Positions 2,529 through 62,709 of a stretch of 64,000 nt of DNA are shown piece by piece. Position 1 is the first letter of the stretch. The number at the start of each line of letters is the position of its first letter. A model generated the notes under the pieces. The model had not been told where the DNA came from. It did not search any database and worked only from the letters and a program-made list of their open reading frames with translations. The position numbers and the translations under genes were made by a program. The DNA comes from Lacipirellula parvula (GTDB taxonomy: Bacteria; Planctomycetota; Planctomycetia; Pirellulales; Lacipirellulaceae): the NCBI RefSeq assembly GCF_009177095.1, contig NZ_AP021861.1, positions 620,001 through 684,000 of the forward strand, read 5' to 3'.

Positions 2529-2838
2529 TGAGGTGGGCGAGCTTCGCAGAGATAGGGGCGCCGGTCAATTCCAATCGGTGCTTGCTGCTTGTGCTGGCTG
2601 GGCTGGTTTTCTCTCGCAAAGCCGCCAAGGCGCAAAGAAAACGCCGAGCAGAGGAAAGAATGAACATCGCATTATTCCTCTGCGCCTCCGCGCCTCTGCG
2701 AGAAATCTATTCGCCAGAATCAGCCTCTCGCAGAGGCGCAGGGTGCGCAGAGGAATTACACACGCATTCGCATTTCTTTGCGATCGTTAGCGTCTTCGCG
2801 GCTTGGCGAGAGAATACCCGGCAAGCCAACCGGAACGA
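2529..2838. other. Intergenic gap filled by a nested palindrome
   Basis: This 310-base gap contains no credible gene. Its main content is the nested inverted-repeat element at 2609-2814. The gap holds the region 5' of lpxA and the region 3' of the zinc-ribbon membrane protein gene. Confidence 0.7.
2609..2814. repeat. Nested inverted repeat, 'CTCGCAAAGCCGCCAAGG' family
   Basis: The outer arms are 2609-2633 and 2790-2814. They are imperfect reverse complements built on TTCTCTCGC(A/C)AAGCCGC. The inner arms are 2675-2703 (CTCTGCGCCTCCGCGCCTCTG) and 2726-2754. The whole element is about 206 bp with no coding capacity. It is MITE-like or REP-like in form. Confidence 0.85.
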
Positions 2839-4887
2839 CTAAGGCGTGAAGAGATCCGCCGTCGCGCCCGTTTGCGGGGCCACGAAATCTTCCGGCGCGA
2901 AGGCGAAACCCGCGACGACCACTTGCTTTGCATCGCCCGTGTAGCCGGCAATCGCTTGGCTTGGATCGGCGACGATCGCACCGACGACGGCGACTTCATC
3001 GCCGAACTTGAAGTCGATCTTGTCCATCAGCACTTTGTTGACCGACACGGTCGAGCCGAGCGGCGTTTCGATCGTGTATTCGGTCCACTGTCCTTGCGGC
3101 TGCAGATCGGTGACGCGGCCCAGCAGCAGCACGCCCTGGTTGGGGCGGCGGGCATGTTCGAGCCAGCGGCCGGCGATCATCGCTAGATCGTTGCGGCGGG
3201 CCGGATCGCCGACGGCGCCGCGGAAAATCAGCTTCGCGGCCATCTGCTTGGTGACGAGGTCGTTGCCGAAGTCTTTGGGGTCGGTCAGCGTGAACCGCTC
3301 AGCCAGCTTGCAGAGTTCGATGTACGCCTGCCCCATCGCGGCGACGTCTTCCTTACGAGCGAGGTCGCCCGCGAGGAACGTGCGATGGGCGGCGTCGGCG
3401 CTGGCGATGTGATCGCCCAGGTCGGTGACGCTGAAGAGTTTGACGCCTTTCAATTCACCGACGATCGGCGTGGTCGGCCAGTGAATGGCTTCGGCGGCGG
3501 CGGTTGGCATGACGGCCTCGTCGCGGTGGATCGTCGCGGGAGGCGTGAGAGGCTGTGCTTCCGTAGCGGCGGGAGCATCGGCCGCGGCCAGTTCGTCGCC
3601 CGCCGGCGGCTGCGGTTCGTCGGCGAATTCGAGCTTCGACTCGCCAAGTGGCTGCAACGGCGCAGCGGCTTCGGCCAGCGGAGCCGCGTCGACTGGCGCA
3701 GGCGCCGGCAAGCGATCGTCGGCAATGCTCAGCGGCTCTTGCGATGCCGGAGCGGCGGCGCCCGGCAGCATCGAGGCAGGCAGCAACTTCGCGATGCCGA
3801 GCAGGTCGCCGTCGGGGCCTTTGAGCCACAGCAGCGCGTAGCCGGCGAGGAAGATGCCGATGAAGCCGCCGCCGACAACGCCGACCAGCGTCTTCACGAC
3901 CGATGGGCGCTTGCGGCGGATGGGGACCGTGCGTTCGAGTTCGTCGAACTCTTCATCGCTGGTCCACTGCTCGTGTTCTGGATCGGTCTCAGCGCTTGCT
4001 TCGTAGGTGACGTCGTCTTCGCCGTCATCGGTTTGCGTGGCAGCAGCGCTCGCTTGCAGACGCTGCCAACGGTCGTCGAACGACTCGTCGCTGGCATCGC
4101 CGTATTCCGAATCGTCGGCGGCGATCTCCGCGTATTCGGGTTGCTCATGCTGATCTTCGGTCGACTCGTCTGCGTCGAACTCCGCAAAGGTCGGTGAATC
4201 GGCTAGCGAAGGCGCCGTTTCTGCATCCGCCGCGGCTGGCGTCGCCGGGGCGAGCGGCGCCGGCGGCGTCTTCATCAGGTCGGACAGCAATTGGTCGAGA
4301 CGGCTGCCGCCGAGTTTTAGTTCGTCGGCTGCGGACGCGGCGGGGTGTGCGGTTTCTGGATCGGCGTCGCGGTAGGCTGCGTCGAGCGTCGCGCCGAACG
4401 TTTGCCGCGGGGCGTGATCGTTGGGGATGATGCGGTCGTCGATCTCGGCTTCAAATTCCTCGAACGATGCGACTTCCGCCGTCGGTTCGTCGGCCTCTTC
4501 CGCGTCGTCTTGCTCCGCAGCTTCAGGCGCGGACGCGCCCGGCAACTGCCAACTGGAGGTCGATCGCAAGAGTCGCGAGAGTTTGTCGTCGGTCGATTCG
4601 GCGACCGGCTCGTGTTCCGGCTCCGGCGCCATGTCTTCGTCGTCGACGATGATGCCGAGCGGCTCGCGCGTCGGCGTCGCTTCATCCATCAACTCGTCGT
4701 CGTTCTCCGACGACGGATGATGAATGTCTTGCTCAACAAGCCGCACCTTCGGAATGGCGCGGGGGGCGACCGAAGCGAGCAGGAACTCCGCTTCGCAGAT
4801 CGGGCACTCGACGAGCGACGTCGGCGTGAGGCCGGCCGGCAATTCGAGGTGCGATGAACAGCGCGGGCAGAGGGTGATCGACGCCAT
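2839..4887 (-). CDS. Zinc-ribbon single-pass membrane protein, acidic linker
   Basis: This 682-residue protein has a four-cysteine zinc ribbon at the N-terminus (Cys7-Cys10 and Cys28-Cys31, CPRC...CPIC). A long acidic, Ala/Glu/Asp/Pro-rich low-complexity region follows, up to about residue 320. One transmembrane helix lies near residues 327-352 (VVGGGFIGIFLAGYALLWL). After another Pro/Ala-rich linker there is a C-terminal domain of about 200 residues that looks folded. That domain contains GRVTDLQPQGQWTEYTIETP, which suggests a small beta-barrel. I chose the ATG at 4887 so that the protein begins at the ribbon; an in-frame start at 4920 adds 11 residues. The function is unknown. Confidence 0.75.
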   Translation of the reverse strand: MASITLCPRCSSHLELPAGLTPTSLVECPICEAEFLLASVAPRAIPKVRLVEQDIHHPSSENDDELMDEATPTREPLGIIVDDEDMAPEPEHEPVAESTDDKLSRLLRSTSSWQLPGASAPEAAEQDDAEEADEPTAEVASFEEFEAEIDDRIIPNDHAPRQTFGATLDAAYRDADPETAHPAASAADELKLGGSRLDQLLSDLMKTPPAPLAPATPAAADAETAPSLADSPTFAEFDADESTEDQHEQPEYAEIAADDSEYGDASDESFDDRWQRLQASAAATQTDDGEDDVTYEASAETDPEHEQWTSDEEFDELERTVPIRRKRPSVVKTLVGVVGGGFIGIFLAGYALLWLKGPDGDLLGIAKLLPASMLPGAAAPASQEPLSIADDRLPAPAPVDAAPLAEAAAPLQPLGESKLEFADEPQPPAGDELAAADAPAATEAQPLTPPATIHRDEAVMPTAAAEAIHWPTTPIVGELKGVKLFSVTDLGDHIASADAAHRTFLAGDLARKEDVAAMGQAYIELCKLAERFTLTDPKDFGNDLVTKQMAAKLIFRGAVGDPARRNDLAMIAGRWLEHARRPNQGVLLLGRVTDLQPQGQWTEYTIETPLGSTVSVNKVLMDKIDFKFGDEVAVVGAIVADPSQAIAGYTGDAKQVVVAGFAFAPEDFVAPQTGATADLFTP

Positions 4888-5112
4888 GGAATTCCTACGT
4901 TTCGACTCCGTTACACTCATCCCGCATCAGTGCGAGACGCGACACATGCTCCGCCGCCGCGGGTTCTTAGTTTAACAATACGCCGGTTGTTTGTCGGCGG
5001 CAGCGCGAGAATTCTAGCGCCCGTCGGGACGCTAGCTACGCCGCGGGGCGAACTTCGATGTTGCGGGGCGTTTCTTGCAAACGCGGGCAGCGGGCGGTTG
5101 CCGCTGCAATCG

Positions 5113-6645: not shown

Positions 6646-6985
6646 GTGTTGAGTTTAAGGAGGCGTCGATTGGTGAGCCATTGTGGCTGAAGATCAATGG
6701 GGCGTCGATGGATCAGCCCCGGGAGGGGCGATATCATGTAGCCAGGGGCGTGAGCCCCTGGAATTGATCGCCGCGAAGAGGCTGAGCCCCGGAGGGGCGA
6801 CACCAGAAGATGTGACGAGCTCGGCGAAGGGCTCTTGAATGGTGCCGCCCCTCCGGGGCTCAAGCAGCCTTAAACTTTCGAGTCCAGGGGCTCACGCCCC
6901 TGGCTACAACATTTCGCCCCTACCGGGGCTCGTGACCGGATGAATTTCCTTCGCGTTGCAGCAGCGCACACGGTTTAATACGCCC
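6646..6985. other. Intergenic gap between divergent genes
   Basis: This 340-base gap lies between the divergent carboxypeptidase and deacetylase genes. It is mostly occupied by the nested palindrome at 6715-6930. I see no gene in it. Confidence 0.7.
6715..6930. repeat. Nested palindrome, 'AGCCCCGGAGGGGCGA' family, copy 1
   Basis: The element is 216 bp. From the outside inwards it reads AGCCCCGG(G)AGGGGCGA, then GTAGCCAGGGGCGTGAGCC, a spacer, and AGCCCCGGAGGGGCGACA. The complementary series follows in reverse order and ends with CGCCCCTACCGGGGCT. Each arm is itself a small hairpin. A second copy lies at 10446-10644. Confidence 0.9.
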
Positions 6986-8534: not shown

Positions 8535-8554
8535 GCGGTAGGTTCTTCTCGATC

Positions 8555-10428: not shown

Positions 10429-10445
10429 GGCAGATGCCTCGTTGA

Positions 10446-10644
10446 AGCCCCGGAGGGGCGACATGATGTAGCCAGGGGCGTCAGCCCCTGGTTCGCGGGT
10501 TCGTTCGAAGCTTAAGCCCCGTGAGGGGCGACACTGCCCGCGCTGGACGAATCGTGCCGCCCCTCACGGGGCTAAGATGCCTTCGTATCGTGACGGACCA
10601 GGGGTTCGCGCCCCTGGCTACTCGATATCGCCCCTGCCGGGGCT
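10446..10644. repeat. Nested palindrome, 'AGCCCCGGAGGGGCGA' family, copy 2
   Basis: This 199-bp element has the same order of modules as the copy at 6715-6930: AGCCCCGGAGGGGCGA, GTAGCCAGGGGCGTCAGCC, AGCCCCGTGAGGGGCGACA, then their complements, ending in GCCCCTGCCGGGGCT. The inner hairpin has compensatory changes (CCGTGAGG paired with CCTCACGG), which points to selection for pairing or to copying as a unit. Confidence 0.9.
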
Positions 10645-11616: not shown

Positions 11617-11687
11617 CGAATGACGAAGCCCGAATGACGAATGAAAAACGCTTGCGTCCCCCATTCGTCATTCGGGCTTCGTCATTT
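11611..11687. repeat. Inverted repeat, 'AATGACGAATGACGAA' family, copy 1
   Basis: The left arm is 11611-11644 (AAATGACGAATGACGAAGCC followed by CGAATGACGAATG). The right arm is 11662-11687 (CATTCGTCATTCGGGCTTCG and so on). The first bases of the element provide the xerC stop codon. Related copies lie at 19429-19507 and 62571-62668. Confidence 0.88.
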
Positions 11688-12315
11688 TCTCCGCTGGCCG
11701 TGTAACGTCCGTCGCCGCTTACCGCTCTAGACCGTGTCGAATCAGCCAACTGACGCTGATCGGCCGCGGTTTCAGTTTATGAGCAGGCAAAGCGGCGTAT
11801 GTTATGCGCCGGCCGCGGTTCGATCGGCGACCCTCCACCGTCGCGGGGCGGTCTGGTCTCTTCCTCTCCCAAGGCCGGGCCGCCCCAGCTTTTTGCGCAA
11901 GCCCCCCTACCTCTTATGCACTTCTGGCTCCCTCCCCCTTGAGGGGAGGGCTGGGGAGGGGGTAACGAACTCTGGTACACGCATCTTCACCCCTCCCTAA
12001 CCCTCCCCTCAAGGGGAGGGGACCAGAAAAGCAATGCAGTGAATCGCGTCGCCCGTATAATCATCACAAACGGCCCGCGCTCTTCGCAACTCCTCAGCAA
12101 CCACGTTGCCCCAACGCATCCTGCGACGTAAATAATTCAACAGGCCATGGCGAAATCTCCCCGCCACCGGCTCGGCGTTGCCATAGGCGACGCCGAAGTC
12201 CGCTGGACGCCCGGCCACGACAAGTTGAATCCCGTGGTGCGCGCCGCCCCTGGCGACGCGTCGGCCGCGTTACGTTCGAGCCGCCTTGCGCGGCTTCAGT
12301 TGGGGGAGTCTGCAT
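11617..12315. other. Long intergenic gap, repeats only
   Basis: This gap of about 700 bases holds the end of the AATGACGAATG repeat and the CCTCCCCTTGAGGGGAGG element at 11922-12028. The remaining sequence has no convincing gene. A TATAAT at 12054-12059 has no gene placed close enough to use it. Confidence 0.6.
11922..12028. repeat. Nested palindrome, 'CTCCCCTTGAGGGGAGG' family, copy 1
   Basis: The arms TTCTGGCTCCCTCCCCCTTG and CAAGGGGAGGGGACCAGAA enclose GGGCTGGGGAGGGGGT and ACCCCTCCCTAACCC. Each outer arm also contains the self-complementary CCCCTTGAGGGG. Related elements lie at 13740-13835 and inside mfd at 31315-31350. Confidence 0.88.
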
Positions 12316-13695: not shown

Positions 13696-14110
13696 AGTCG
13701 TTGTTCAATTCTCAGCTTCAGAGAAAACGAAACGATGAGGTCCCCTCCCCTTGAGGGGGAGGGTTAGGGAGGGGTGAGTGAAGCGGGTACCAGGGTTCCA
13801 CCCCCTCCCCAGCCCTCCCCTCAAGGGGGAGGGAGCCGCAACATTCACATTGGCGGCGCAAGTTGCCGCTACCGGAATCGGATGCTCCCGGAGGCAGGTG
13901 TGCCTCCGACTATCAGGCGTCCGCTCAGCACGGCGCGCGCCCGCAAAACGAGCCCATTTTCGGCCCGGTTGTGACGGTTCTGCCGCCTGCCGAGGCCGTT
14001 GCTTGACACTCTTCGGCAACGCGCCTACCGTGAATTAAGTTCTCGCCGCCGCTCGACTTCGGTTTCCGGCCGGCGAGGCGGTTTTATCTTCGTCTCTTCG
14101 AGATTGATTC
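13696..14110. other. Intergenic gap upstream of the EpsI-like gene
   Basis: This gap of about 415 bases holds the repeat at 13740-13835. The rest (13836-14110) shows short imperfect palindromes such as GGAGGCAGGTGTGCCTCC near 13890, but no gene. Confidence 0.6.
13740..13835. repeat. Nested palindrome, 'CTCCCCTTGAGGGGAGG' family, copy 2
   Basis: CCCCTCCCCTTGAGGGGGAG at the left and CCTCCCCTCAAGGGGGAGGG at the right enclose the inner pair GGTTAGGGAGGGGTGAG and CCCCCTCCCCAGCCC. The element starts about 45 bases after the response-regulator stop codon. Confidence 0.88.
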
Positions 14111-16673: not shown

Positions 16674-16766
16674 TTAGCCCCCGGTTCTTCAAACCGGGGG
16701 GCGTGCGCCGTCACCCCATCGCGCCGCAAACTCAAATCACCCCCGGTTTGAAGAACCGGGGGCTAA
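16674..16766. repeat. Paired hairpin repeat, 'CCCCCGGTTCTTCAAACCGGGGG', copy 1
   Basis: The left unit TTAGCCCCCGGTTCTTCAAA plus CCGGGGGG and the right unit CCCCCGGTTTGAAGAACCGG plus GGGCTAA are each self-complementary and are also inverted copies of one another. The near-identical copy 2 is at 22149-22240. The element begins 14 bases after the permease stop codon. Confidence 0.92.
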
Positions 16767-20079: not shown

Positions 20080-20317
20080 TAACTGGTTCCCATGTCCCTC
20101 GAATCAAATGTGGCGAGGGGTTAAATGCGTTGCCCGCGAATGACGCGAATGTACGCTAATGAATTGAACTCAAATACTTTCAACACAGAGGACACAGAGA
20201 TCACGGAGAAGTGCACCGAACTTAACGCCGCAAGTCTTCTCCGAGTCCTCTGTGCTCTCTGTGTTAAATCTCCCCCGCATTTCTTTCGCGACCATTCGCG
20301 TCATTCGCGGGCTATTC
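20080..20317. other. Intergenic gap with nested palindrome
   Basis: The space between the TPR gene and the mtdB stop codon is mostly the repeat element at 20133-20311. No gene is seen. Confidence 0.6.
20133..20311. repeat. Nested inverted repeat, 'CCCGCGAATGACGCGAATG' family
   Basis: The outer arms are CCCGCGAATGACGCGAATG at 20133 and CATTCGCGTCATTCGCGGG ending at 20311. The inner arms are AACACAGAGGACACAGAG (20182-20199, continuing to 20210) and CTCTGTGCTCTCTGTGTT (20248-20265). The architecture matches the element at 2609-2814 although the sequences are unrelated. It ends 6 bases from the mtdB stop codon. Confidence 0.9.
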
Positions 20318-21181
20318 CTAAAGCTCTTTCCCAATCGCATAAATCTCATCCGCATCGAGCACCAGGTCGTTGCGGGTAAACAGCTTCGCGATCGCCGCTT
20401 TGTGAATCTTCATTTTCGTCCCGCCGACGCCGAGGGCGCCGTAGCAGACGATGGCGCCATGGTGCGTCGCCTTATCGGTTGGCGCCACGTCGCCCAGGCC
20501 GTGGGCCGGCACGGCGTTCAAGTCGATCGCCGCCTGCAGGCCCGCCGCTTGGGCGAGGTAGCCCTTCGGCAGCAGCTCCACCCCGGGCGGGCCGCAGGCG
20601 ATCACCGCCTGGGCGCCTTCCACCGCCGTCGCCGCGGCCATCGCGTTTTCGTTCGTCCATGCCGTGAGATCGGCGCCCGGCACGATCCGGCTGATCTTGT
20701 CGCACGTCCCCTCGGCATGCGTCAACTTGCGAGAAGCCACCCGCACGCGAGCCCCTTCGCTCGCCAGCAGCCGCACCACTCGCCGACCGACGGCGCCCGT
20801 CCCAGCCAGCACGGTGACGATCGCTCCCGAGAGCGGCACATGCCGCCGCGCCGCAAGCACCGCCGCGGCCGCCGTCGTGTTCGCCCCGTTGGCGTCGAGC
20901 ATCACCGACACCCGCATCGGCCCGAAGAACGCCTCGGTCGCCGCCTTGAGCAGCCCTTCGGCCACTGTTACGTCCGACCCGCCAATAAACACGGCCGTAT
21001 TCTTCAGCTCCTGCGGCCCGCGCGTGAACATGGCGCCGTACACCAAGTCGCGCACCTGAGCCGCCGCCACGCCGCCATGGCGAAACAAAAAGTCGACGCC
21101 CGAATCAACCGCCACCACGCCGTCAAACACGCTCGGCTGCGGATCAGCGTCGAGGCAGACCAGAATCTTTTTGAGAGACAT
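20318..21181 (-). CDS. mtdB: NAD(P)-dependent methylene-H4MPT dehydrogenase
   Basis: This 287-residue enzyme oxidises methylene-tetrahydromethanopterin to methenyl-H4MPT in cytoplasmic formaldehyde oxidation. The N-terminus (MSLKKILVCLDADPQPSVFD), FFGPMRVSVMLDANGANTTA and the Rossmann motif VLAGTGAVGRRV match MtdB of Methylorubrum. The C-terminal GALGVGGTKMKIHKA and FTRNDLVLDADEIYAIGKEL also match. I started at 21181 because the in-frame extension runs through a repeat. fae lies 230 bases upstream on the same strand but is separated by a terminator and repeats. Confidence 0.92.
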   Translation of the reverse strand: MSLKKILVCLDADPQPSVFDGVVAVDSGVDFLFRHGGVAAAQVRDLVYGAMFTRGPQELKNTAVFIGGSDVTVAEGLLKAATEAFFGPMRVSVMLDANGANTTAAAAVLAARRHVPLSGAIVTVLAGTGAVGRRVVRLLASEGARVRVASRKLTHAEGTCDKISRIVPGADLTAWTNENAMAAATAVEGAQAVIACGPPGVELLPKGYLAQAAGLQAAIDLNAVPAHGLGDVAPTDKATHHGAIVCYGALGVGGTKMKIHKAAIAKLFTRNDLVLDADEIYAIGKEL

Positions 21182-21209
21182 AGATGTGAGTGACTGGTAA
21201 CTAGTGACT

Positions 21210-21316
21210 GGTAGCCGCGGGTCAACGACCCGCCGGAGCGACTTCAAATGGGGAATGTCGAATGTGGAATGGGGAGCAGCATCCCCTCCCCCATTCCACA
21301 TTCAGCATTCCCCACT
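21210..21316. repeat. Repeat, 'GTAGCCGCGG' outer arm plus 'GAATGTGGAATGGGG' inner pair
   Basis: The left outer arm GTAGCCGCGGGTCAACGACC (21211 on) continues as CGCCGGAGCGA. The inner pair is GGGGAATGTCGAATGTGGAA (21250 on) and TTCCACATTCAGCATTCCCC (ending at 21313). No right outer arm is present, so this is a partial element. It lies in the mtdB leader. Confidence 0.85.
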
Positions 21317-21320
21317 AAAT

Positions 21321-21359
21321 AAAAAAGCCACGCGCCGCGCCCAGCGCGACGCGTGGCCC
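21321..21359 (-). terminator. Intrinsic terminator of fae
   Basis: On the minus strand, GGGCCACGCGTCGCGC and GCGCGGCGCGTGGC form a strong GC hairpin followed by TTTTTT. It lies about 55 bases after the fae stop codon and before mtdB, so fae can be transcribed as a single gene. Confidence 0.85.
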
Positions 21360-21411
21360 ATTCTCATTTCCAAGCAGCTGACTGCTGAACGCTGACAGCT
21401 GATCGCTTGAT

Positions 21412-21909
21412 TTAGAACCCACGGAACGGATGCGCCGCCGCATCCTTCCCAGCGAGCATTTCGTCGACGTTCGGCTTCCCTTCCATGGCGTTCTTGATCG
21501 CCATGACGGTCGCTTCGTAGTTGTAGTCGTAAATCTTCTTGTCGTCGGCCGCTTCCCAGTGGATGAACACGCCGCAGACGATCACCAGGTTCTCGACGTC
21601 GCCCTTCTTGATCACGCCGTTGGCGACCGAGTCGGCCACGGCCTTGGCAACGGCGGCTTGGGCCGGGCCGAACATTTGCACGGCTTGCTTGGCGCCCTTG
21701 ATTGTCACCTTGGTGATCATCACGGTCGCGGGCTTCACAGCCAGGTTCGGCGTGAGCACGGCCAGCAGGTTGCTGTGACCTTCGCTCTGACGGGCCAAGG
21801 CGTTGGCGAACGCCACGCCGACCGGACCGGCCTTGTCGCCGATCAGCAGGTCGATATGGGCAATTTCATTTCCTTCGCCAGCCAGTGCCTCTCCGATGAA
21901 CATCGACAT
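21412..21909 (-). CDS. fae: Formaldehyde-activating enzyme
   Basis: Fae speeds the condensation of formaldehyde with tetrahydromethanopterin to give methylene-H4MPT, the substrate of MtdB. This protein has 165 residues, the normal length. EIAHIDLLIG contains the catalytic histidine (His18 here, His17 in the reference enzyme). The signatures SLLAVLTPNL-like NLLAVLTPNL, AVQMFGPAQAAVA and VFIHWEAADDKKIYDYNYEA are near-diagnostic. An alternative ATG lies two codons downstream. A terminator follows the gene. Confidence 0.95.
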   Translation of the reverse strand: MSMFIGEALAGEGNEIAHIDLLIGDKAGPVGVAFANALARQSEGHSNLLAVLTPNLAVKPATVMITKVTIKGAKQAVQMFGPAQAAVAKAVADSVANGVIKKGDVENLVIVCGVFIHWEAADDKKIYDYNYEATVMAIKNAMEGKPNVDEMLAGKDAAAHPFRGF

Positions 21910-22148: not shown

Positions 22149-22240
22149 TTAGCCCCCGGTTATTCAAACCGGGGGCGTGCGCGACTGCCCGATCGCGCCG
22201 GTGGCCCAAATCACCCCCGGTTTGAAGAACCGGGGGCTAA
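22149..22240. repeat. Paired hairpin repeat, 'CCCCCGGTTCTTCAAACCGGGGG', copy 2
   Basis: TTAGCCCCCGGTTATTCAAA plus CCGGGGG, then a spacer with GATCGCGCCG, then CCCCCGGTTTGAAGAACCGG plus GGGCTAA. It is nearly the same length and sequence as the copy at 16674-16766. Even parts of the spacer (GGCGTGCGC, ATCGCGCCG, CAAATCA) are shared. Confidence 0.92.
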
Positions 22241-25075: not shown

Positions 25076-25298
25076 CCTCGTTCCCACGCTCCGCGTGGGA
25101 ACGACCTGTCCGACGCTCCGCGTCGCGGGCCGAAGCCGGGCAGAGAGAGGCCCAAAGGGCGCCATGTCGTCGCGCAGCGTCGACATGCGAACGATCGTTG
25201 GATGTCGAGGCGCAGAGGGGCGACTGCGGCTCCCGCTCAGGCAGGACGCGACGCAGCGCGTCGACTCAAACGTTCCCACGCGGAGCGTGGGAACGAGC
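25076..25298. repeat. Nested palindrome, 'CGTTCCCACGCTCCGCGTGG' family, copy 1
   Basis: The outer arms are CTCGTTCCCACGCTCCGCG (to 25103) and CGCGGAGCGTGGGAACGAG (to 25298). The inner arms are CGACGCTCCGCGTCG and CGACGCAGCGCGTCG. Every arm is also self-complementary. Confidence 0.85.
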
Positions 25299-25670: not shown

Positions 25671-25871
25671 AACGCTGAAAGCGTTCCAGCATCCAGCCCG
25701 GGGTTGATTGCGCAGCAATCTACCCCGGGACAGCGGCGCCCCGGATACCAACCCTGAAAGGGTTGCAGAAGCTTCAACCCTTACAGGGTTGTGCGGCTCG
25801 TTGGGCAACGTCCCCGGGGTAGATCGCACCGCGATCAACCCCGGGCTGGGTGATGAAACGCTTACAGCGTT
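25671..25871. repeat. Three-tier nested palindrome
   Basis: The outer pair is AACGCTGAAAGCGTT (25671-25685) and AACGCTTACAGCGTT (25857-25871). The middle pair is CAGCCCGGGGTTGATTGCGC (25694 on) and GCGATCAACCCCGGGCTG (ending at 25848). The inner pair is AACCCTGAAAGGGTTG (25750-25765) and CAACCCTTACAGGGTTG (25775-25791). All six units are hairpins, and the left and right members differ only as reverse complements. Confidence 0.92.
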
Positions 25872-27313: not shown

Positions 27314-27736
27314 CGGACGATCCTTTCGGCGAACACGGCGGGCTAGACAGGCAGATGGGAGTTCCGCAGAAGAACCGTTGCCTGGAGAGGCGAAACGGGG
27401 CGAAATTGCGGAGCTATGAAGTTTACCGGCCCTACGGAGCCGGTTCAATCCGCGACGAAAGGGTTCAGGCGGGAGGGTTCAGGGTTCAGGAAATACGGCT
27501 TGTACCTCGCCAACGGCCTCGTTCCCACGCTCCGCGTAGGAACGGACTATTCGACGCTCCGCGTCATTTTCCTGCTACCTGACGACGTTGTAATCCAGCC
27601 ATCCGGATGGCCGCAGAGCGGCGGGGGCGGCGTTCCCACGCGGAGCGTGGGAACGAGGGGAGCGTGGAGAACCCGCATAGGAGCAAGGGTTCAGCTGTCC
27701 TCCCCGAACCCTGAACCCCGATAACTGAACCCTCGC
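27314..27736. other. Intergenic gap with composite repeat
   Basis: This 423-base gap between gltA and the PPIase gene is largely the composite element at 27461-27733. No gene is seen. Confidence 0.65.
27461..27733. repeat. Composite element: 'GGGTTCAGG' outer arms around a 'CGTTCCCACGC' pair
   Basis: The outer left arm is GGGTTCAGG repeated (27461-27490) and the outer right arm is CCCGAACCCTGAACCCC plus CTGAACCCT (ending at 27733). Inside are CGTTCCCACGCTCCGCGTAG (27520 on) and CGTTCCCACGCGGAGCGTGG (27631 on). It shows that modules from different families combine. Confidence 0.82.
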
Positions 27737-29180: not shown

Positions 29181-32100
29181 CTAGGGAGCGACCCCCTCTG
29201 GCCGCAAGAGAGATTTCAGCCGCGATAGCACCCGCTCCGGCTCGTCGGCGTCGGGGCCCAGCACGAGGTACGCCGAACGGGCGTCCGCGACCCGCAACAT
29301 CCCGCCGCTCCGCTCCACCAGTCGGCTCAGCGGGCCGCGATTCGTGTAGGTGAGGACGGCGTACTTCCCTTCGAGGTGGATCGCCTCAAGCAGGTTCTGG
29401 TGAGCCCAAATTCGCAGGCGGGCCAGTTCCACCAGTTGCTCGACCGGCGGCGGCACTTCGCCGAAGCGGTCGGCCAGTTCGGCGTGCAGGTCGTCGAGGT
29501 CGCCTTCCGAACCGATCCGCGCCAGGCGGCGGTAGAGATCGATCTTCGTCCGCATGTCGGGAAGATACCGCTCCGGGAAGTAAGCGGCGACTGGCAGATC
29601 GATCGAAACATCGACCGAATCCTTCGGCGGCAGCTTCTTCAGTTCGCGGACCGCCTTCTCCAGCAGCGCGCAGTAAAGCTCATAGCCCACGGCCGCGATG
29701 TGGCCGCTCTGCTGGGTGCCGAGCAAATTGCCGGCGCCGCGGAGTTCAAGGTCCCGCATGGCGAGCGCGAAGCCGGCGCCCATTTGGCTGAACTCCTCAA
29801 TCGCCCGCAGCCGCCGCGCCGCCTCCGGCGAGAGGTGCTTCTTCTGGTCGACCAGCAGGTAGCAGTAGGCCCGATGCTTGTACCGCCCCACCCTGCCCCG
29901 CAGCTGGTGCAAGTCGGCCAAACCGTAGCGGTCGGCGTCGTCGATGAAGATCGTGTTCGCGTTGGGAATGTCGAGGCCGCTCTCGACGATCGTCGTGGCG
30001 AGCAGGATGTCGAACTCGTGCCGCACGAAGCCGAGCATCACCTCCTCAAGCTCGGTTTCGTGCATCTGGCCGTGCCCGATGCCGATGGTCGCTTCGGGGA
30101 CGATCCGCTGGAGCTCGTGAGCGACCTTCTGGATATCGTGAATCCGGTTGTGAACGAAGTAGGCTTGCCCGCCGCGATTCAGCTCCCGCAAGATCGCGTG
30201 GCGGATCAGCGTATCGTCGAAGCGGGCGATCCGCGTTTCGACGGCGAGGCGATCCTTCGGCGCCGTCTCGAGGTTCGAGATGCTTCGCACACCAAGGAGC
30301 GACATGTGGAGCGTTCGCGGGATTGGCGTGGCGGTCATCGTCAGCACGTCGACGCTCGCGCGGAGGGCTTTCAATCGTTCCTTCACCGCGACGCCGAAGC
30401 GTTGCTCTTCGTCGATGATCACGAGCCCCAGATTCTGGAACTGCACGTCGGCCGACGCGAGGCGGTGGGTGCCGATCAGCAGATCGATCGTGCCGTCTGC
30501 TGTCTTCTTGAGAATCTCGCGTTCTTCTTTCGCGGTGCAGAACCGCGAGACGGCGCCGATCTGGAACGGGAACTCGGCCATCCGCTGCGTGAACGTGCGG
30601 CGATGCTGCTCGGCGAGGATCGTCGTCGGCACGAGCACGGCCACCTGGTAGCCAGCGTCGATGGCTTTGAAGGCGGCGCGGATCGCCATCTCGGTTTTGC
30701 CGAAGCCGACGTCGCCGCACAGGAGGCGGTCCATCGGCTTAGCGAGCTGCATGTCTTGCTTGATCGCCGCGATCGCGGTGAGTTGGTCGGGCGTTTCCTG
30801 GTAGGGAAACGCGGCGTCGAATTCTTGCTGCCACGGCGTATCGGCGGGAAACGAAATGCCGGGCCGTGCTTCGCGGGCCGCCTGCACCTGCAGCATGTCG
30901 ACGGCGAGGTCTTCGACCGCCCGCTCTGCCGCCTTCTTGTGCCGCAGCCACGCCGTGCCGCCGATCTTGGCGAGCATCGGCTTCGCCTTGCGGCCGCCGA
31001 CGTACTTCTGCACGAGCTCGATCTTGCTCGTGGGGACGAAGATCCGCGTCCCTTCGGCGTATTCGAGTTCGAGATGCTCCTCAGCGCCCGCCTCTTTGTC
31101 GAGCAGCTTCAGCCCGCGATAGCGGCCGATGCCGTGGGCGAGATGGACGACGAGGTCGCCCTCGCGGAGTTGCAGGAAGCTGTCGATCGCGCGGCCGGTG
31201 GGCCGCTGCGAGGGACGCGAGAGTTCGGTGCGATGGAAGAGCTCGGCGGCACTGACGAGGATCAGGCCTGTTTGATTTGCAACACGCTCTGAGTTGATGG
31301 CCGCATCCGCTTCTGCCCCCCTCCCCAACCCTCCCCTCGAGGGGGAGGGAGCCTCAGGGTTCACGCTGATCACACGAAAGCCATGGCTCAGCCGTCCCCG
31401 CGCGAAGTGGAGCCGGCCCTCTTGCGCGAGCCGCGTCTCGCGGAAAACCTCGCCGAGGCGTTCGACCTCGGCGTCGGTATCGCACACGAGGTAAACGTGC
31501 TGGCCGACCGAGGCCGATTCGAGTTCGCCGCGGACGCGGGCGACGTCGCCGCTGAATTGCTCGACCGATTCGAACTGCAAGTGGGCCGTTGTTTCGTAGG
31601 AACCGGCCGGCACGCCCGCGGCAGTCACCGACGGGAACTTTAGCATCTCGGTCATCGCCACCGACGTGGCGAAGTACTCCTCGGGATGCTCAAGCCGGCG
31701 ATGGTAATGCTTGCCCTCTTCGTCGAGGTCGGTCGGCTCGACGAGCATGAACCAGCTTCCTTCGGGCAGGTAGCTGGCATAGTGCGTGCGGAGTTTGACG
31801 TCGGCCGTCAGCACGGTGACGTCGGCGGTCGGCAGGCTGGCGAGACTCCGCTGCGTCGCAACGTCGAACGTGCGGATCGATTCGACCTCTTCGTCGAACA
31901 GCTCGATCCGCAGCGGATCGGTGGCGTCGGGCGGAAAGACGTCGAGGATGCCGCCGCGGAGGGAGAACTCGCCCGGCAGTTCGACGGCGGTCGTTCCCTG
32001 GCAGCCTCGCTCGGCGAGCCAATGGGTGAACGCATTGAGGTCGAGCCGCTGCCCGACGGCGATGCGGTGGTTGGCCGCGTCGAGTTGCTCCTCGCTCGGC

Positions 32101-32528
32101 AGCGGCTGCAGCAGCGACTGAATCGAGGTGACCACGATCGACGGCGCGTTGGCGGCAGCGAGCCGTTTGATGAGCCGTTGCCGCTGGCCGAAGTTCTCGT
32201 CCTGCACGATCCGATTGCCGGCGTCGGCTTCAGTGGCGGGAAAGGCTTCCGCGGCAGCGTCGGTAAAGACGGCGAGGTCGTCGATGAGTTGATCAACGTC
32301 GGCCGCGTGAGGCAGGACGACCGTGAGCGTCCGCGGACAGCGGCGGGAGAGCGCCGCGGCGACCAGCGCGCGAGAAGACCCCCAGACTCCGCCGAGCGTC
32401 CCCGCCTGGCCGTTGGCCAAGCTCGTCAGGACTTCGGAAAAGTCGGGATGCGTCTCAAGTTGAGCGGGCAACCCCCGCAACGCCGCTGCGGCGTCGGCGA
32501 GTTCCCCCGCGGCAGTTTCCATCGCCAC
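29181..32528 (-). CDS. mfd: Transcription-repair coupling factor
   Basis: Mfd removes stalled RNA polymerase and recruits the UvrA/UvrB excision machinery. This protein has 1,115 residues. It has a UvrB-like N-region (GSSRALVAAALSRRCPRTLT), an RNAP-interaction domain after DSFLQLREGDLVVHLAHGIG, Walker A GDVGFGKTEMA near residue 604, DEEQ near 704, TATPIPRTLHMSL, and a C-terminal TRCF domain. Residues about 385-420 contain an insert (with EAPSPSRGGLGRGA) coded by a half-copy of the CTCCCC repeat. The start is GTG at 32528; an ATG two codons in is equally possible. Confidence 0.95.
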   Translation of the reverse strand: MAMETAAGELADAAAALRGLPAQLETHPDFSEVLTSLANGQAGTLGGVWGSSRALVAAALSRRCPRTLTVVLPHAADVDQLIDDLAVFTDAAAEAFPATEADAGNRIVQDENFGQRQRLIKRLAAANAPSIVVTSIQSLLQPLPSEEQLDAANHRIAVGQRLDLNAFTHWLAERGCQGTTAVELPGEFSLRGGILDVFPPDATDPLRIELFDEEVESIRTFDVATQRSLASLPTADVTVLTADVKLRTHYASYLPEGSWFMLVEPTDLDEEGKHYHRRLEHPEEYFATSVAMTEMLKFPSVTAAGVPAGSYETTAHLQFESVEQFSGDVARVRGELESASVGQHVYLVCDTDAEVERLGEVFRETRLAQEGRLHFARGRLSHGFRVISVNPEAPSPSRGGLGRGAEADAAINSERVANQTGLILVSAAELFHRTELSRPSQRPTGRAIDSFLQLREGDLVVHLAHGIGRYRGLKLLDKEAGAEEHLELEYAEGTRIFVPTSKIELVQKYVGGRKAKPMLAKIGGTAWLRHKKAAERAVEDLAVDMLQVQAAREARPGISFPADTPWQQEFDAAFPYQETPDQLTAIAAIKQDMQLAKPMDRLLCGDVGFGKTEMAIRAAFKAIDAGYQVAVLVPTTILAEQHRRTFTQRMAEFPFQIGAVSRFCTAKEEREILKKTADGTIDLLIGTHRLASADVQFQNLGLVIIDEEQRFGVAVKERLKALRASVDVLTMTATPIPRTLHMSLLGVRSISNLETAPKDRLAVETRIARFDDTLIRHAILRELNRGGQAYFVHNRIHDIQKVAHELQRIVPEATIGIGHGQMHETELEEVMLGFVRHEFDILLATTIVESGLDIPNANTIFIDDADRYGLADLHQLRGRVGRYKHRAYCYLLVDQKKHLSPEAARRLRAIEEFSQMGAGFALAMRDLELRGAGNLLGTQQSGHIAAVGYELYCALLEKAVRELKKLPPKDSVDVSIDLPVAAYFPERYLPDMRTKIDLYRRLARIGSEGDLDDLHAELADRFGEVPPPVEQLVELARLRIWAHQNLLEAIHLEGKYAVLTYTNRGPLSRLVERSGGMLRVADARSAYLVLGPDADEPERVLSRLKSLLRPEGVAP
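31315..31350. repeat. Half copy of the 'CTCCCCTTGAGGGGAGG' repeat inside mfd
   Basis: CCCCCTCCCCAACCCTCCCC followed by TCGAGGGGGAGGG matches one half of the elements at 11922 and 13740. It lies within the mfd coding sequence and keeps the frame open. Confidence 0.85.
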
Positions 32529-32560: not shown

Positions 32561-32734
32561 AGTAGCCGCGGCTCAACGAGCCGCCGGAGCGAACTCGAAT
32601 GGGGAATGCGGAATGTGGAATGGGGAGTTGGATAGCTACCGCAACGATGGAGTGGAGAGCAACGCTCGCCCCATTCCACATTCAGCATTCGCCATTTACT
32701 CAGCACCGCTCCGGCGGGGCGTTGACCCGCGGCT
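32561..32734. repeat. Complete composite element, 'GTAGCCGCGG' outer and 'GAATG' inner arms
   Basis: The outer left arm is GTAGCCGCGGCTCAACGAGC plus CGCCGGAGCG (32562-32591) and the outer right arm is GCTCCGGCGGGGCGTTGACC plus CGCGGC (32708-32733). The inner pair is GGGGAATGCGGAATGTGGAA (32601 on) and TTCCACATTCAGCATTCGCC (ending at 32693). It fills the gap between mfd and the glycosyltransferase and touches the latter's stop codon. Confidence 0.92.
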
Positions 32735-58834: not shown

Positions 58835-60118
58835 ATGCGATTCGCACTCGTCACGCTCGTTGCCCTTGGTTGGCAGTCCTCAGTCGTCGCTGGTGACAAC
58901 TGGCCGCAGTGGCGCGGGCCGAATGCCGCGGGGGTTGCCGACAAAGGCAACTACCCTGTCGAGTTTTCCGGTGACGATGGCGTCGTATGGAAAATCGACG
59001 TGCCGGGCGTGGGCAGCTCCTCGCCTGTAGTATGGGACGACGCGATCTTCCTCACCACGAGCGACGGCGGGCAGGACGTTCTGCTGTGCTACGGCTTCGA
59101 CGGCAAGGAGCGTTGGTCGAAGACGCTCGGCCCTGGCGACGAGGGCAAGCATCCGAAGGGGAGCGGCGCCAATTCCTCGCCCCTCACCGACGGTAAGATC
59201 GTCGTCACCTACTTCAAGGGTGGCCGCGTCGCTTGCCACGATCTTGCGGGCAACGAGAAGTGGCAGTTCAACCTGCAGGAACGCTATGGCGAAGACACGC
59301 TGTGGTGGGACCTCGGCACGTCGCCGATCTTTGCGGCGGGGAACATCGTCATCGCGGTCATTCAAGCGGGCGACTCATATCTCGTCGCGTTCGATCCGAA
59401 GAACGGCGAGGAAGTTTGGAAGGTGAAGCGGCAGTATGAACGGCCTGAGGAGTCGGATCAGGCGTACACGACGCCGCAGGTGGCGAACATCGGCGGCCGC
59501 GAAGTGATCGTCACATGGGGCGCCGACCATCTCACTGGCCACGACGCGAAGACGGGCGAACTGATTTGGGAGAGCGCAGGTTTCAACCCGAAGGACGAAG
59601 GGATGTGGCGCGTGATCGCCTCCCACGCGATGAACGACAAGGTCGCCGTCGTGCCGTTTGGCCGCGGCAAGTTCCTGGCGGGCGTCAAGCTCGACGGTTC
59701 AGGCGACGTTACCGAATCGAACCGCTTGTGGGAAGAAGAAGTCGAAGGCCCCGACGTGCCGACGCCGATCATTGCCAACGAAAAAGTCTACACACTTTCG
59801 GACAAAGGCAGGCTGGAGTGCCGCGACGTCAACACGGGTGAGGAATTGTGGTCTGGCGCGCTGCCCAAGGGAGGCGACAAGTATTTCGCCTCGCCGGTGC
59901 TGGCCGGCGAGATTCTCTACTGCGTGCGGGAGGATGGGACGGCGTTCGTCGTCGACGTGAGCGATGGCTTCAAGCTGCTGACCGACAAGAAAGGAAATGA
60001 ACTCGGCGAGCGCGTCGTGGCGACCCCGGTGCCGGTGCGAGATCGCTTGCTCATCCGCGGCGATGATCACCTCTTCTGCTTTGGCGCCGACGAAGACGGC
60101 CCCGCCGCCAGCAAGTAG
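58835..60118 (+). CDS. Secreted PQQ-type beta-propeller protein
   Basis: This 427-residue protein has a signal peptide (LVTLVALGWQSSVVAG). It then has WPQWRGPNAAGV, which opens many planctomycete PQQ-like repeat proteins, and several propeller blades (KIDVPGVGSSSPVVWDDAIF, SSPLTDGKIVVTY, YLVAFDPKNGEEVWKVK). It probably folds as an eight-blade propeller without obvious PQQ ligands. The function is unknown; BamB-like scaffolding is one option. The ATG at 58835 has GGAG upstream. Confidence 0.85.
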   Translation: MRFALVTLVALGWQSSVVAGDNWPQWRGPNAAGVADKGNYPVEFSGDDGVVWKIDVPGVGSSSPVVWDDAIFLTTSDGGQDVLLCYGFDGKERWSKTLGPGDEGKHPKGSGANSSPLTDGKIVVTYFKGGRVACHDLAGNEKWQFNLQERYGEDTLWWDLGTSPIFAAGNIVIAVIQAGDSYLVAFDPKNGEEVWKVKRQYERPEESDQAYTTPQVANIGGREVIVTWGADHLTGHDAKTGELIWESAGFNPKDEGMWRVIASHAMNDKVAVVPFGRGKFLAGVKLDGSGDVTESNRLWEEEVEGPDVPTPIIANEKVYTLSDKGRLECRDVNTGEELWSGALPKGGDKYFASPVLAGEILYCVREDGTAFVVDVSDGFKLLTDKKGNELGERVVATPVPVRDRLLIRGDDHLFCFGADEDGPAASK

Positions 60119-60128
60119 CCGCGCCCAT

Positions 60129-60277
60129 GTAGCCGCTGGTCAACGACCGGCCGGAGCGGGAGACGAATGCTGAATGGTGAGGAAACTCGCGGCTTACAGC
60201 GACTCTTTTCCCCATTCCCCATTCAGCATTCGACATTTCTTTACCACTGCTCCGGCGGCTCGTTGAGCCGCGGCTAC
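60129..60277. repeat. Complete composite element, 'GTAGCCGCGG' and 'GAATG' arms, copy 2
   Basis: The outer arms are GTAGCCGCTGGTCAACGACC plus GGCCGGAGC and GCTCCGGCGGCTCGTTGAGC plus CGCGGCTAC. The inner pair is GAATGCTGAATGGTGAGG and CCCCATTCAGCATTC. It lies between the PQQ gene and the protease gene and ends 2 bases before the protease stop codon. Confidence 0.9.
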
Positions 60278-60279
60278 AG

Positions 60280-61296
60280 TCACGATGCGATCGCCAGTTC
60301 TCGCAGCTGTTCGTCGCGGATGACCGACAGCTCTAACGGCTCGCCTGCCGGGGCGAGCGACACGATCCGCGTGAGGTCGTCGACAGTCATCGTCACGCGT
60401 CCCGCGGCGGCGACGATCAGATCGCCCGCTTGCAACCCCGCGCGGGCGGCGGGGCCGTTGGGATCAACGCTGAGCACTTCGATCGCTTCATCGGCCAGTA
60501 GATCGAGTTCGCGGACCAGACTTCGCGGCAAGCCAACCGTCGTCCCCGCGATGCCAAGCCAGCGCCGGCGGACCTCGCCATGAGCGAGCAATTCGCCGAC
60601 CACCCAGTGCGCAGTATTCGACGGCACCGAGAACCCGAGCCCTTGGGCCATCGCGATGATCGCCGTGTTGACGCCAACGACGCGGCCGCGGGTATCAACG
60701 AGCGGACCGCCCGAGTTGCCAGGGTTCAATGGCGCGGTGTGCTGAATCACGTTCTCAATCAGCCGTCCACCGACGCCGCGCATCGCCCGGCCTGTGGCAC
60801 TGACGACGCCGGTCGAAACGGTCGAGCGAAAGCCGAGCGGATTGCCCATCGCGATCACGAGTTGGCCGACGCGCAAGCCGTCGCTGTCGCCGAGTTCCGC
60901 GAACGGCAGATCGCGAGCGGCGAGTCGCACCAGCGCTAAGTCGGTGAGCGGATCGTCGCCAACCAGTTCGGCGTCGAGGCGGTCCCCTTCTTCGGTCACG
61001 GCGGTAAGTTTGCTCCGCCCGTTCGCGACGTGGCTGTTCGTGAGGGCGTAGCCGTCGGGAGTCAGCAGCACGCCCGAGCCGCTGCCGCCGCGGGTATCGC
61101 CGCGCGGGCCTTCGATGCAAAGCACGGTCGGGCCGAGGCCCTCGACGACGCCAATCACGGCGCGAGAGTAGGCGTCGAGCAGGTCGAGATCGCTAGCAGC
61201 GGCGGCGTCCCCTTCGGGACGAGCCGGCTGCGGACGGTCGGCAGAGGGCGAATCGCCGGCGGCGAATTGCCAATTGGGGGAGATGGGGCGGGGCAT
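60280..61296 (-). CDS. HtrA/DegP-like S1C serine protease without signal peptide
   Basis: This 338-residue protein contains a trypsin-like domain with the triad His (LTNSHVANG, about residue 83), Asp (DPLTDLALVRL, about 113) and Ser (NPGNSGGPLVD, about 190), plus one C-terminal PDZ domain (about 240-335, GPAARAGLQAGDLIV). The N-terminus (MPRPISPNWQFAAGDSPSAD) has no signal peptide or membrane anchor, so it would act in the cytoplasm. It resembles bacterial S1C proteins. An in-frame start at 61356 does not add a signal peptide. Confidence 0.9.
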   Translation of the reverse strand: MPRPISPNWQFAAGDSPSADRPQPARPEGDAAAASDLDLLDAYSRAVIGVVEGLGPTVLCIEGPRGDTRGGSGSGVLLTPDGYALTNSHVANGRSKLTAVTEEGDRLDAELVGDDPLTDLALVRLAARDLPFAELGDSDGLRVGQLVIAMGNPLGFRSTVSTGVVSATGRAMRGVGGRLIENVIQHTAPLNPGNSGGPLVDTRGRVVGVNTAIIAMAQGLGFSVPSNTAHWVVGELLAHGEVRRRWLGIAGTTVGLPRSLVRELDLLADEAIEVLSVDPNGPAARAGLQAGDLIVAAAGRVTMTVDDLTRIVSLAPAGEPLELSVIRDEQLRELAIAS

Positions 61297-61388
61297 GGCG
61301 GGGGTCCAAAGGCGGGTGTACGAATGTTTAACTGGGGAATTGTACGGAGCAGTCAAGCCAAAGGTGCGGCGAAGCAGCCGCCGGTCAC

Positions 61389-61416
61389 CGCTCCGGCGGG
61401 TCGTTGACCCGCGGCT
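61389..61416. repeat. Solo 'GTAGCCGCGG' outer arm
   Basis: CGCTCCGGCGGGTCGTTGACC plus CGCGGCT is the same as the right outer arm of the elements at 32561 and 60129. No inner pair is found beside it. It lies just before the ROK kinase promoter. Confidence 0.8.
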
Positions 61417-61427
61417 CCACGCTCGAA

Positions 61428-61456
61428 TTGCGGGTCTGCCACCCCCCCCGTATACT
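61428..61456 (+). promoter_or_regulatory. Sigma-70-type promoter of the ROK kinase gene
   Basis: TTGCGG (61428-61433) and TATACT (61451-61456) have the optimal 17-base spacing. Transcription should start near 61463, giving a leader of about 58 bases. Confidence 0.65.
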
Positions 61457-61520
61457 GGCTGGCTTGCTCGAATTCCCTTGATTGACAGTAGTTGCGGCGA
61501 TTTCCTCTCCCGGGCTTGCG

Positions 61521-62564
61521 ATGGCTGACACCTCTCAATTTCTCACCGCGGCGGCTGCTCGGCGGCCTCTGCTGGTTGGCGTCGACGTCGGCGGCACGAA
61601 CATCAAGATTGGGATCGTCGACGATGGCGGCCGGCCGGTCGCTTATCGGTCGATCCCGACTCACGAAGAGCGCGGTCCGGCCGACGCGGCCGATCGCATC
61701 GGCGCCGCCGTCCGGTCGTTGGTGGACGAGTCAGGCCTGCATCAAGGCGACGTCGCGCGGGTCGGGCTCGCCACGCCTGGGCCGATGGACCTCAAGGCCG
61801 GCATGCTGCTGGGCCCTGGCAACTTGCCCCATTGGCACAACTCGCCGATCCGCGATCTGGTGAGCCGCGCCTGCGGTTATCCGGTTACCTACGTGAACGA
61901 CGCCAACGCCGCCGCCTACGGCGAGTACTGGGCCGGCGCCGGGCGCGAGTATCGCAGCATGGTACTGTTCACGATGGGCACCGGCATCGGCGGCGGCATC
62001 ATCGTCGAAGAAATGCTGGTTGAAGGCGTCCACAGCTGCGGCGGCGAACTGGGCCACATCATCATCGACTGCCACCCCGAGGCGCCGATCAACTCGCTCG
62101 GCATCCGCGGCACGCTCGAAGGCTACTGCGGGGCATACGCGTTCATCCGCCGGGCGGAGGAAGCCCTGTCGCACGGCACGCCGAGTGCGTTGCGGGCCCG
62201 CATTGAACGCGGCGAAGAGCTCACGCCGAAGATGATTGCCGAGGAAGGCGAGCGCGGCGACCAGCTCTGCCTCGACCTGATCATGGAGACGGCCCGCTAC
62301 ATGGCGATTGGTCTCGTCACGGCTGTCCACTCGATCGATCCGGAAAGCGTCGTCATTGGCGGGGCGATGACCTTCGGCGGCGACGGCAATCCGCTGGGCG
62401 AACGGTTCATGTCGCGTCTTCGCGAAGAGGCGACTTCGCGGATGATCCACAGCCTGCGCGGTAATATTCACATCGACTTCGCCCACCTCGGCGGCGACGC
62501 CGGGTACATCGGCGCGGCGGGCTGGGCTGGGCGGGAGTACCTGCTAGCAGCAACGGCGAGGTAG
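61521..62564 (+). CDS. ROK-family sugar kinase (glucokinase-like)
   Basis: This 347-residue kinase has the ASKHA fold: VGVDVGGTNIKIG (phosphate 1, about residues 19-31), VNDANAAAYGEYWAGAG with the catalytic Asp, MGTGIGGGII (phosphate 2), and GGELGHIIID. The usual ROK zinc site CxCGxxGCxE is replaced by NSLGIRGTLE, so three of its cysteines are gone. Glucose is the likely substrate but other hexoses are possible. The ATG at 61521 was chosen over an upstream in-frame start. Confidence 0.88.
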   Translation: MADTSQFLTAAAARRPLLVGVDVGGTNIKIGIVDDGGRPVAYRSIPTHEERGPADAADRIGAAVRSLVDESGLHQGDVARVGLATPGPMDLKAGMLLGPGNLPHWHNSPIRDLVSRACGYPVTYVNDANAAAYGEYWAGAGREYRSMVLFTMGTGIGGGIIVEEMLVEGVHSCGGELGHIIIDCHPEAPINSLGIRGTLEGYCGAYAFIRRAEEALSHGTPSALRARIERGEELTPKMIAEEGERGDQLCLDLIMETARYMAIGLVTAVHSIDPESVVIGGAMTFGGDGNPLGERFMSRLREEATSRMIHSLRGNIHIDFAHLGGDAGYIGAAGWAGREYLLAATAR

Positions 62565-62570
62565 GAAGGA

Positions 62571-62709
62571 AAATGACGAATGACGAAATCCGAATGACGA
62601 ATGAAGCGCTCATCGCGCCGAGTTGCCTTCGTCTCCCATTCGTCATTCGTCATTCTGGTTTCGTCATTAAATCGTAATCGCTCCGGCGGCTCGTTGAGCC
62701 GCGGCTACT
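62571..62709. repeat. Composite: 'AATGACGAATG' inner pair plus 'GTAGCCGCGG' right arm
   Basis: The inner pair is AAATGACGAATGACGAAATC (62571 on, with CGAATGACGAATG) and CATTCGTCATTCGTCATTC (62637 on) with TTTCGTCATT ending at 62668. The right outer arm is GCTCCGGCGGCTCGTTGAGC plus CGCGGCTAC, ending at 62708. The left outer arm is missing. It combines modules of two families and lies about 14 bases before the lepA start. Confidence 0.88.

Follow-up and report, generated by a model that had tools for sequence, protein, structure and literature searches.

A 64,000-nucleotide stretch of the Lacipirellula parvula genome (hereafter the window; bases 620001-684000 of a single contig of 6.92 Mb) carries short inverted palindromic repeats between its genes, and we asked what these repeats are and how they came to be there. 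An initial annotation, made from the letters alone, had read them as one superfamily of nested hairpin elements resembling repetitive extragenic palindromes (REPs) or bacterial interspersed mosaic elements (BIMEs), which are moved by REP-associated tyrosine transposases (RAYTs). Our analysis indicates that the window very probably holds short, mobile non-coding elements of several kinds: REP doublets forming hairpins (REPINs) copied by RAYTs, gene-less derivatives of transposons whose ends consist of three hairpins (a, b and a'), and elements with periodic arms that were dispersed as units. We observed arms common to dispersed elements and transposase flanks, and recorded their copy number, the covariation of stems and the turnover of elements between sister species.

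We scanned 464 kb for inverted pairs, namely the window, 160 kb around it and twelve scattered 20-kb pieces, with three dinucleotide-type shuffles of the same pieces, made by our own script, as a control. The scan yielded 69 pairs scoring at least 20 and 108 scoring at least 16, with none in the three shuffles at either threshold, and 135 scoring at least 14 against a shuffle mean of 2.7. The density claimed for the palindromic repeats is thus far above chance. Merging pairs at a score of at least 16 gave 84 elements, about one per 5.5 kb, only two of which were intragenic according to our own codon-usage gene caller. All 15 window elements reaching a score of 20 lay between called genes, which agrees with the location first proposed; together with a weaker element at 13741-13834, the window count is 16 rather than the "about 20" of the initial annotation. 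Doubtful gene frames around the elements were considered and dismissed, as in all seven competing pairs tested Pfam matched the called frame and not its rival. Genome-wide, the arm at 25077 occurred at 47 sites with three or fewer mismatches, compared with 0 for a backward-pattern control. One 20-kb piece (L020), called just 13% coding, was excluded from the gap statistics on nesting and placement given below.

The arms themselves were of two sorts. Among 98 left arms of pairs scoring at least 17, a few of them overlapping, 48 passed a hairpin test and 25 were periodic (z>3), with a period of 7 in 12 arms, 8 in six, 9 in five, and 10 and 11 in one each. The other 25, which include short hairpins and weakly periodic arms, were neither, and none of the 48 hairpin arms passed the period test. 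Folding as single-stranded DNA gave z -5.0 for the arm at 16674 versus z -1.1 for the heptamer arm at 11619. Because the hairpin and period tests and the folds of these examples agree, much of the set contradicts the claim that every arm forms a hairpin of its own. Nor does one hairpin plan serve all families: the periodic families lack hairpin arms, and the three-hairpin elements pair with an IS200-like transposase bearing the motif Y---Q--HH.

The hairpin families consist, as REPINs do, of two inverted hairpin REPs in many intergenic copies, and for eight of them we found a cognate RAYT-type gene flanked by the same REP. In the genome itself, PF01797 matched four genes, the RAYT model NF047646 five and a profile from divergent members six, the sets overlapping. 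Scanning 44 RAYT-type loci, some of them fetched twice, listed an inverted pair in 36 and none in eight. At L003, the gene scored 120 bits with NF047646 (NCBIfam cut-off for REP-associated tyrosine transposase, 80) and lay inside an inverted pair of the dispersed family TGTGGGAGGCGTCTCCGACGCCGAT; GAGCCGCGGGGCTTGTCCCCGCGG and AGCGAGCCGGGTCGTC framed RAYT-type genes at L236 and L265, and a RAYT-like gene at L264 was framed by the CCCCCGG family (TTAGCCCCCGGTTCTTCAAACCGGGGG), whose members in the window are the REPINs at 16674-16766 and 22149-22240. Four more families were paired in the congeners G002, G003 (placed in the same genus) and G004: CTAGCCCCGGGCTCCG at L238 in G003, CACGCCCTGCGGAGTACC at L240 in G004, GTCGGGGACCTTTTGCCACT at L241 in G004, where there is also an open CCCCCGG gene, and the K family, known from the window at 32564 and 60128, which frames genes at L269 (G002) and L270 (G004). 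All of these genes lie outside the window, and every paired family was also found as gene-less pairs. A RAYT origin as in REPs and BIMEs therefore stands for many hairpin families, eight of them paired with genes, and does not extend to the three-hairpin elements or the periodic families. For several other hairpin families no transposase gene was found among the loci examined. In the window, no mover was found for the pair of the CCCTCCCC-CTTGAGGGG family at 11929-12022, whose weaker member at 13741-13834 is 75% complementary, or for the CGTTCCCACGCTCCGCGTGGGAACG pair at 25077-25297. Separately, a RAYT gene in G009 (L253) adjoins hairpins with the core CCACGCTCCGCGTGG, which is also the core of the window family at 25077, and is a possible mover.

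The nested elements with three-hairpin ends led to a different enzyme. At L001, in the same genome, a 149-aa Y1 gene (79.9 bits with the IS200 model; cut-off, 55) is framed on the left by hairpins a, b and a' and on the right by their inverse. Its motifs DHVHL, WQ and YIRNQAAHH fit the DH[IV]H, WQ and Y---Q--HH of TnpA-Y1 subclass 1.2, a membership by motif only. The window elements at 6715-6930 (inner pair 6783-6805/6840-6862) and 10446-10641 (inverted pairs and a single-strand fold) have the hairpin order of L001 without a gene; these two and a third at 25671-25871, which has other stems (AACGCTGAAAGCGTT ... CAACCCTGAAAGGGTTG) and folds with z -5.4, look like gene-less copies of transposons with a-b-a' ends inverted at the other end.

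The b plus a hairpins are spanned by the Rfam model RF01687 (Acido-Lenti-1 RNA). Its three window sites, among them both ends of 6715-6930 and the left end of 10446-10641 (55.4 bits), scored 55.4, 44.5 and 42.3 bits, all over the gathering cut-off of 37. With 138 candidates scored per genome, so that counts may be lower bounds, matches at E<=0.001 numbered 86 in this genome, 74 in G004, 28 in G003, and 44, 38 and 20 in three acidobacterial genomes; there were none in 14 control genomes. We searched 17 Y1 loci chosen from 31, mostly for being framed by inverted pairs, and found RF01687 (E<=0.01, some matches below the gathering score) in the flanks of 11, with matches on both sides and opposite strands at nine. 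The same search left two RAYT loci and a classical IS200 locus without a match. Across 12 ends, 8 of 13 stem pairs had changed on both sides with pairing kept. In a comparison free of this choice by inverted pairs, motif typing of 51 loci, from which 20 untypable ones were dropped (11 of these with a flanking pair of at least 18), placed a flanking inverted pair of at least 18 at 15 of 18 Y---Q--HH loci and two or more pairs at 13 of 18. Among the other Y---Q loci the figure was 2 of 13; these two are a single G010 locus that was fetched twice, and near-identical copies in G015 make up several of the 13. Against the contrast, several of the classical IS200 loci that served for it are near-identical copies from one genome.

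RF01687 itself had no match at 13 acidobacterial, puniceicoccal and hydrogenedentote Y1 loci searched. By our own reading, the a-b-a' layout nevertheless stands beside the Y1 genes with other stems at eight of 13 loci in these three other phyla: L325, L330, L331, L336 and L338 in Acidobacteria, L328 in Puniceicoccaceae, and L332 and L335 in a Hydrogenedentota genome. The outer hairpin at L331, AACGCTGAAAGCGTT, is identical to that of the window element at 25671-25871, and the b hairpins of the two are similar. We found no link of Acido-Lenti-1 to a transposon in the open-access literature searched.

The arms of the periodic families did not fold as the hairpins of REPINs. The word ACCACGAANNACACGAA had 29/31 sites in this genome and 21/15 in the acidobacterium G076 and was present in 10 of 31 genomes searched, the sole control match being 1 in G062; TCNCGCAAAGNCGCNAAG had 89/88 sites here, 55/47 in the family-level relative G007 and 19/20 in G076 and was present in 9 of 10 genomes, with one control match, in G005. 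In the window, CGCAAAG-type arms at 2595-2636/2787-2828 form the outer pair of a nested element at 2595-2828, with a related CGCAGAG-type inner pair read by eye; this word pattern had 89/88 sites in the genome and 0 in the control. A second nested periodic element, at 20132-20312, has GCGAATGACGCGAATG arms enclosing a ACACAGAGGACACAGAG pair at 20179-20211/20236-20268 and is common to G003, while G004 has another family there. An AATGACG heptamer pair at 11619-11686 has an arm without a hairpin, and at 27460-27733 a GGGTTCA-repeat outer pair (27460-27500/27693-27733) encloses an CGTTCCCACG pair (27517-27544/27631-27658). We found no paper on the arm words in the literature searched.

In G007, TCNCGCAAAGNCGCNAAG-type arms sit in a nested element of about 300 bp. 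Among 16 loci fetched, 12 alike were aligned, most of them homologous through spacers and flanks, and four shared arms only. A 125-bp piece of this element had 48 matches in G007, 41 of them of at least 70 bp at about 40 places; it had none in the G007 congener G020, four short matches of 24-44 bp in the congener G026 and arm-only matches in L. parvula. Among 20 further G007 copies, 10 shared the right end base, the left ends fell at two main places and four aligned without a break as far as base 408 or beyond. No long gene-bearing copies were recognised in the pieces of about 0.4-1.1 kb, the right end not being found in several of the 20 and no gene search having been made. A miniature inverted-repeat element (MITE) of a DDE transposon would have terminal inverted repeats, a target-site duplication and a related complete transposon; no such transposon was seen for the periodic families.

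Could periodic arms instead arise locally, by polymerase slippage and palindrome repair? Published discussion of heptamer repeats links them to slippage (PMC4692102), and in the TCAGTTG type within-pair identity exceeded that between loci (0.932 vs 0.882; 3 pairs). This was an exception to near-equality: in two other periodic families the values were 0.914 vs 0.893 (4 pairs) and 0.911 vs 0.904 (16 pairs). Identical words moreover are found at numerous loci in this genome, with 60 and 177 exact sites, and in an acidobacterium, and G007 holds homologous copies of about 300 bp, so that we regard a purely local origin as quite improbable. Local arm homogenisation was likewise rejected, because within-pair identity clearly exceeded between-locus identity in few families only. 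Dispersal as units remains our preferred explanation, and more tentatively, periodic-arm elements might form a separate class of mobile DNA, with inverted, often nested arms of iterated 7-11 nt words, common to Planctomycetota and Acidobacteria, moved as units by a putative word-reading enzyme and trading intergenic sites with elements that RAYTs move. As a further observation, CACGAA words that form close pairs are directed outward (- then +) in G076, with 5 pairs lying within 200 bp, and are directed inward (+ then -) in L. parvula.

The nested architecture first described is real, but it exceeds random placement only moderately: 11 of 97 intergenic pairs lay within the spacer of another pair versus 6.0 expected (P=0.037). 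We found two sources of nesting, the a-b-a' transposon ends and the K family of REPs, which recurrently holds heptamer arms. GCCGGAGCG followed by GAATG within 2-24 nt occurred 80 times in this genome versus 4 for a backward control (overlapping matches counted), with 27 versus 4 in G003, 11 versus 2 in G004 and 12 versus 1 in G002, and all four GGGAATG pairs scanned, plus two weaker ones, adjoin a K arm. K and heptamer therefore form a recurrent composite and not a chance nesting. Examples in the window are the K REPIN at 32564-32734, which encloses a GGGAATG pair (32598-32625/32669-32696) in an arrangement that recurs genome-wide, and the K REPIN at 60128-60278, which has heptamer arms inside. 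At 21211-21314 a single K arm (GTAGCCGCGG..CCGGAGCG) accompanies a GGGAATG pair (21249-21274/21289-21314), and at 62572-62709 an AATGACG heptamer pair is followed by a K arm (62679-62709), an arrangement shared with G003 and replaced by another family in G004.

Nesting might come solely from elements that inserted independently into each other's spacers, and the observed excess over random placement speaks for this. Two loci fit the idea: at gap 641182, where L. parvula and G003 have heptamers, G004 carries a different pair, with the K arm and right flank shared, and one copy of the G007 element (L290; G007:C8:63080-63800) has taken up an additional inverted element in its spacer. However, five of the 11 nested pairs are composite elements with a built-in layout, the K-heptamer pattern exceeds its control in all four genomes, and most of the 12 aligned copies of the G007 element are homologous across both spacers. 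Insertion as the only source thus seems rather unlikely overall, and for the a-b-a' and K-heptamer forms it is already unlikely.

We then compared orthologous gaps in sister species, counting degenerate copies below a score of 15 as absent. The 69 gaps with a G003 ortholog divided into 39 with an element in neither genome, 16 in our genome only, five in the other only, five with different families, two with the same family and two with a pair versus a single homologous arm. The gap at 588616, with related outer arms, is a borderline case among the five with different families. Counted from the 25 gaps where our genome has an element, G003 had none at 16, another family at five, the same at two and one homologous arm at two. 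The elements are therefore not identical at all loci, because G003 lacks them or differs at 21 of 25 gaps. For G004, the 39 orthologous gaps comprised 17 with neither, 10 with different families, seven with the other only, four with our own only and one with the same. The same gaps tended to be occupied (G004, 11/15 vs 7/24, P=0.01; G003, 7/25 vs 5/44, P=0.10; raw values, any gap length).

Elements were found in 19 of 41 convergent gaps, the richest class, and in 13 of 51 divergent and 43 of 160 tandem ones. Of 46 elements between tandem genes, 34 lay nearer the upstream stop codon (P=0.002; median 19 vs 89 bp), and convergent gaps of at least 60 bp carried elements more often than divergent ones (19/41 vs 13/51, P=0.048). 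Both biases would suit bidirectional terminators or RNA elements kept by selection at gene 3' ends, with Acido-Lenti-1 a true small RNA; Rfam lists RF01687 as small RNA, and its source paper calls it a probable RNA. Published REPs show a similar placement bias (PMC3733652). We rejected the terminator reading on the ground that elements, including those at 6715-6930 and 22149-22240, also occupy 13 of 51 divergent gaps. At most of the same gaps in the sister species, moreover, the family differs or is gone, and RF01687 frames Y1 genes in inverted orientation at 9 of 17 loci. Selected gene-end signals are, on this evidence, an improbable explanation.

Under the preferred explanation, movement, the hairpin-armed pairs would be REPINs. 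Small HUH-Y1 single-strand transposases of RAYT type, encoded elsewhere in the genome or formerly there, would copy them in trans, and the nested a-b-a' elements would be gene-less derivatives of three-hairpin-ended transposons whose enzyme has the subclass 1.2 signature. We infer the chemistry, the cut site and present activity: the hairpins would fold on the lagging-strand template, the transposase would cut at a TAG-type foot adjacent to the b hairpin, and the excised single strand would be joined elsewhere between genes. Periodic-arm (7-11 nt) elements would also be dispersed as units, by a separate putative enzyme.

Several results weigh against this account. Our data include no base-exact empty site or excision product. 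The RAYT-like gene at L264 has an in-frame TGA (gene at about 1282-1752) where G004 has an open one, and among the loci examined no transposase was found for CGTTCCCACG, CCCTCCCC, GCCACTGGC and GCCACCGG or for the periodic families. Heptamers are absent at both K loci with a transposase gene (L269 and L270). Among Y---Q--HH loci, L191 and L195 have no pair across the gene and L192 has one of only 15.5, and RF01687 lies on one side only at L195 and L192. RF01687 is abundant in Acidobacteria yet had no match at eight acidobacterial Y1 loci, so that no transposase was found for its copies there.

We compared these elements with published systems. REPINs and the GTAG and CGTC REPs with their RAYTs (PMC3116915, PMC3733652), REPs being already known from Planctomycetes, share with the hairpin families intergenic multicopy inverted hairpin doublets, in families paired with a Y1 transposase; unlike published REPINs, many families stand side by side in one genome here, with composites that hold heptamer arms. 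L001 and its relatives share DH[VI]H, WQ and Y---Q--HH with TnpA-Y1 subclass 1.2 (PMC6006769), and a group with TYGTWLPGD resembles class 3 of that survey, which occurs in Planctomycetes and Acidobacteria and has Y----Q and many atypical hairpins; the two resemblances are at motif level only. For subclass 1.2 the survey gives REP as "no", generally no terminal structures and mostly Cyanobacteria and Bacteroidetes, unlike the genes here, which belong to other phyla, mostly have hairpin-bearing inverted ends (15 of 18 loci with a flanking pair) and have many gene-less copies. Double palindromic terminal inverted repeats (TIRs) and the associated tyrosine transposases (TIRYTs; PMC3733652) likewise have inverted joined-hairpin ends around a Y1 gene and dispersed TIR families, also in Acidobacteria. 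Unlike a-b-a' elements, compared here by description, TIRYTs fall mostly in subclass 2.1 (20 of 26, with C-terminal domains; PMC6006769). RF01687, matched above gathering score in sequence and structure, is listed as small RNA and here matches a transposon end. Intergenic heptamer arms are known as GGGAATC inverted pairs in two Xanthomonas (70 and 75 convergent pairs; PMC4692102) and as TAACTGA repeats in Beggiatoaceae (PMC4679880), unlike which the elements here use several different words of 7-11 nt and are nested, with one of the heptamers placed inside a REPIN.

Subclass 1.2, described as without insertion sequence properties, would thereby gain a candidate substrate, the three-hairpin end, found in four phyla with the same layout and with stems that change together. 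The results also point to an Rfam RNA family being the end of a transposon, and genome annotations would be corrected accordingly. Hairpin repeats can now be told apart from periodic-arm repeats: for the former, each mover is accessible to individual testing, and for the latter, finding the mover is a well-defined search.

Among the neighbouring genes, that at 29181-32522 encodes a protein 88% identical to that of Lacipirellula limnantheis I41, the best-scoring named relative in the search. An inverted pair at 30257-30559 (score 17.5, spacer 263) lies within an mfd/TRCF gene and is probably due to chance. At 20318-21909, a methylene-tetrahydromethanopterin dehydrogenase N-domain gene adjoins a formaldehyde-activating enzyme gene, with elements between them and on both sides. 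Outside the window, in the excluded piece L020 (G000:C1:4500001-4520000), five genes were called and 12.6% was coding with the codon model trained on the rest, indicating odd composition or a very atypical region.

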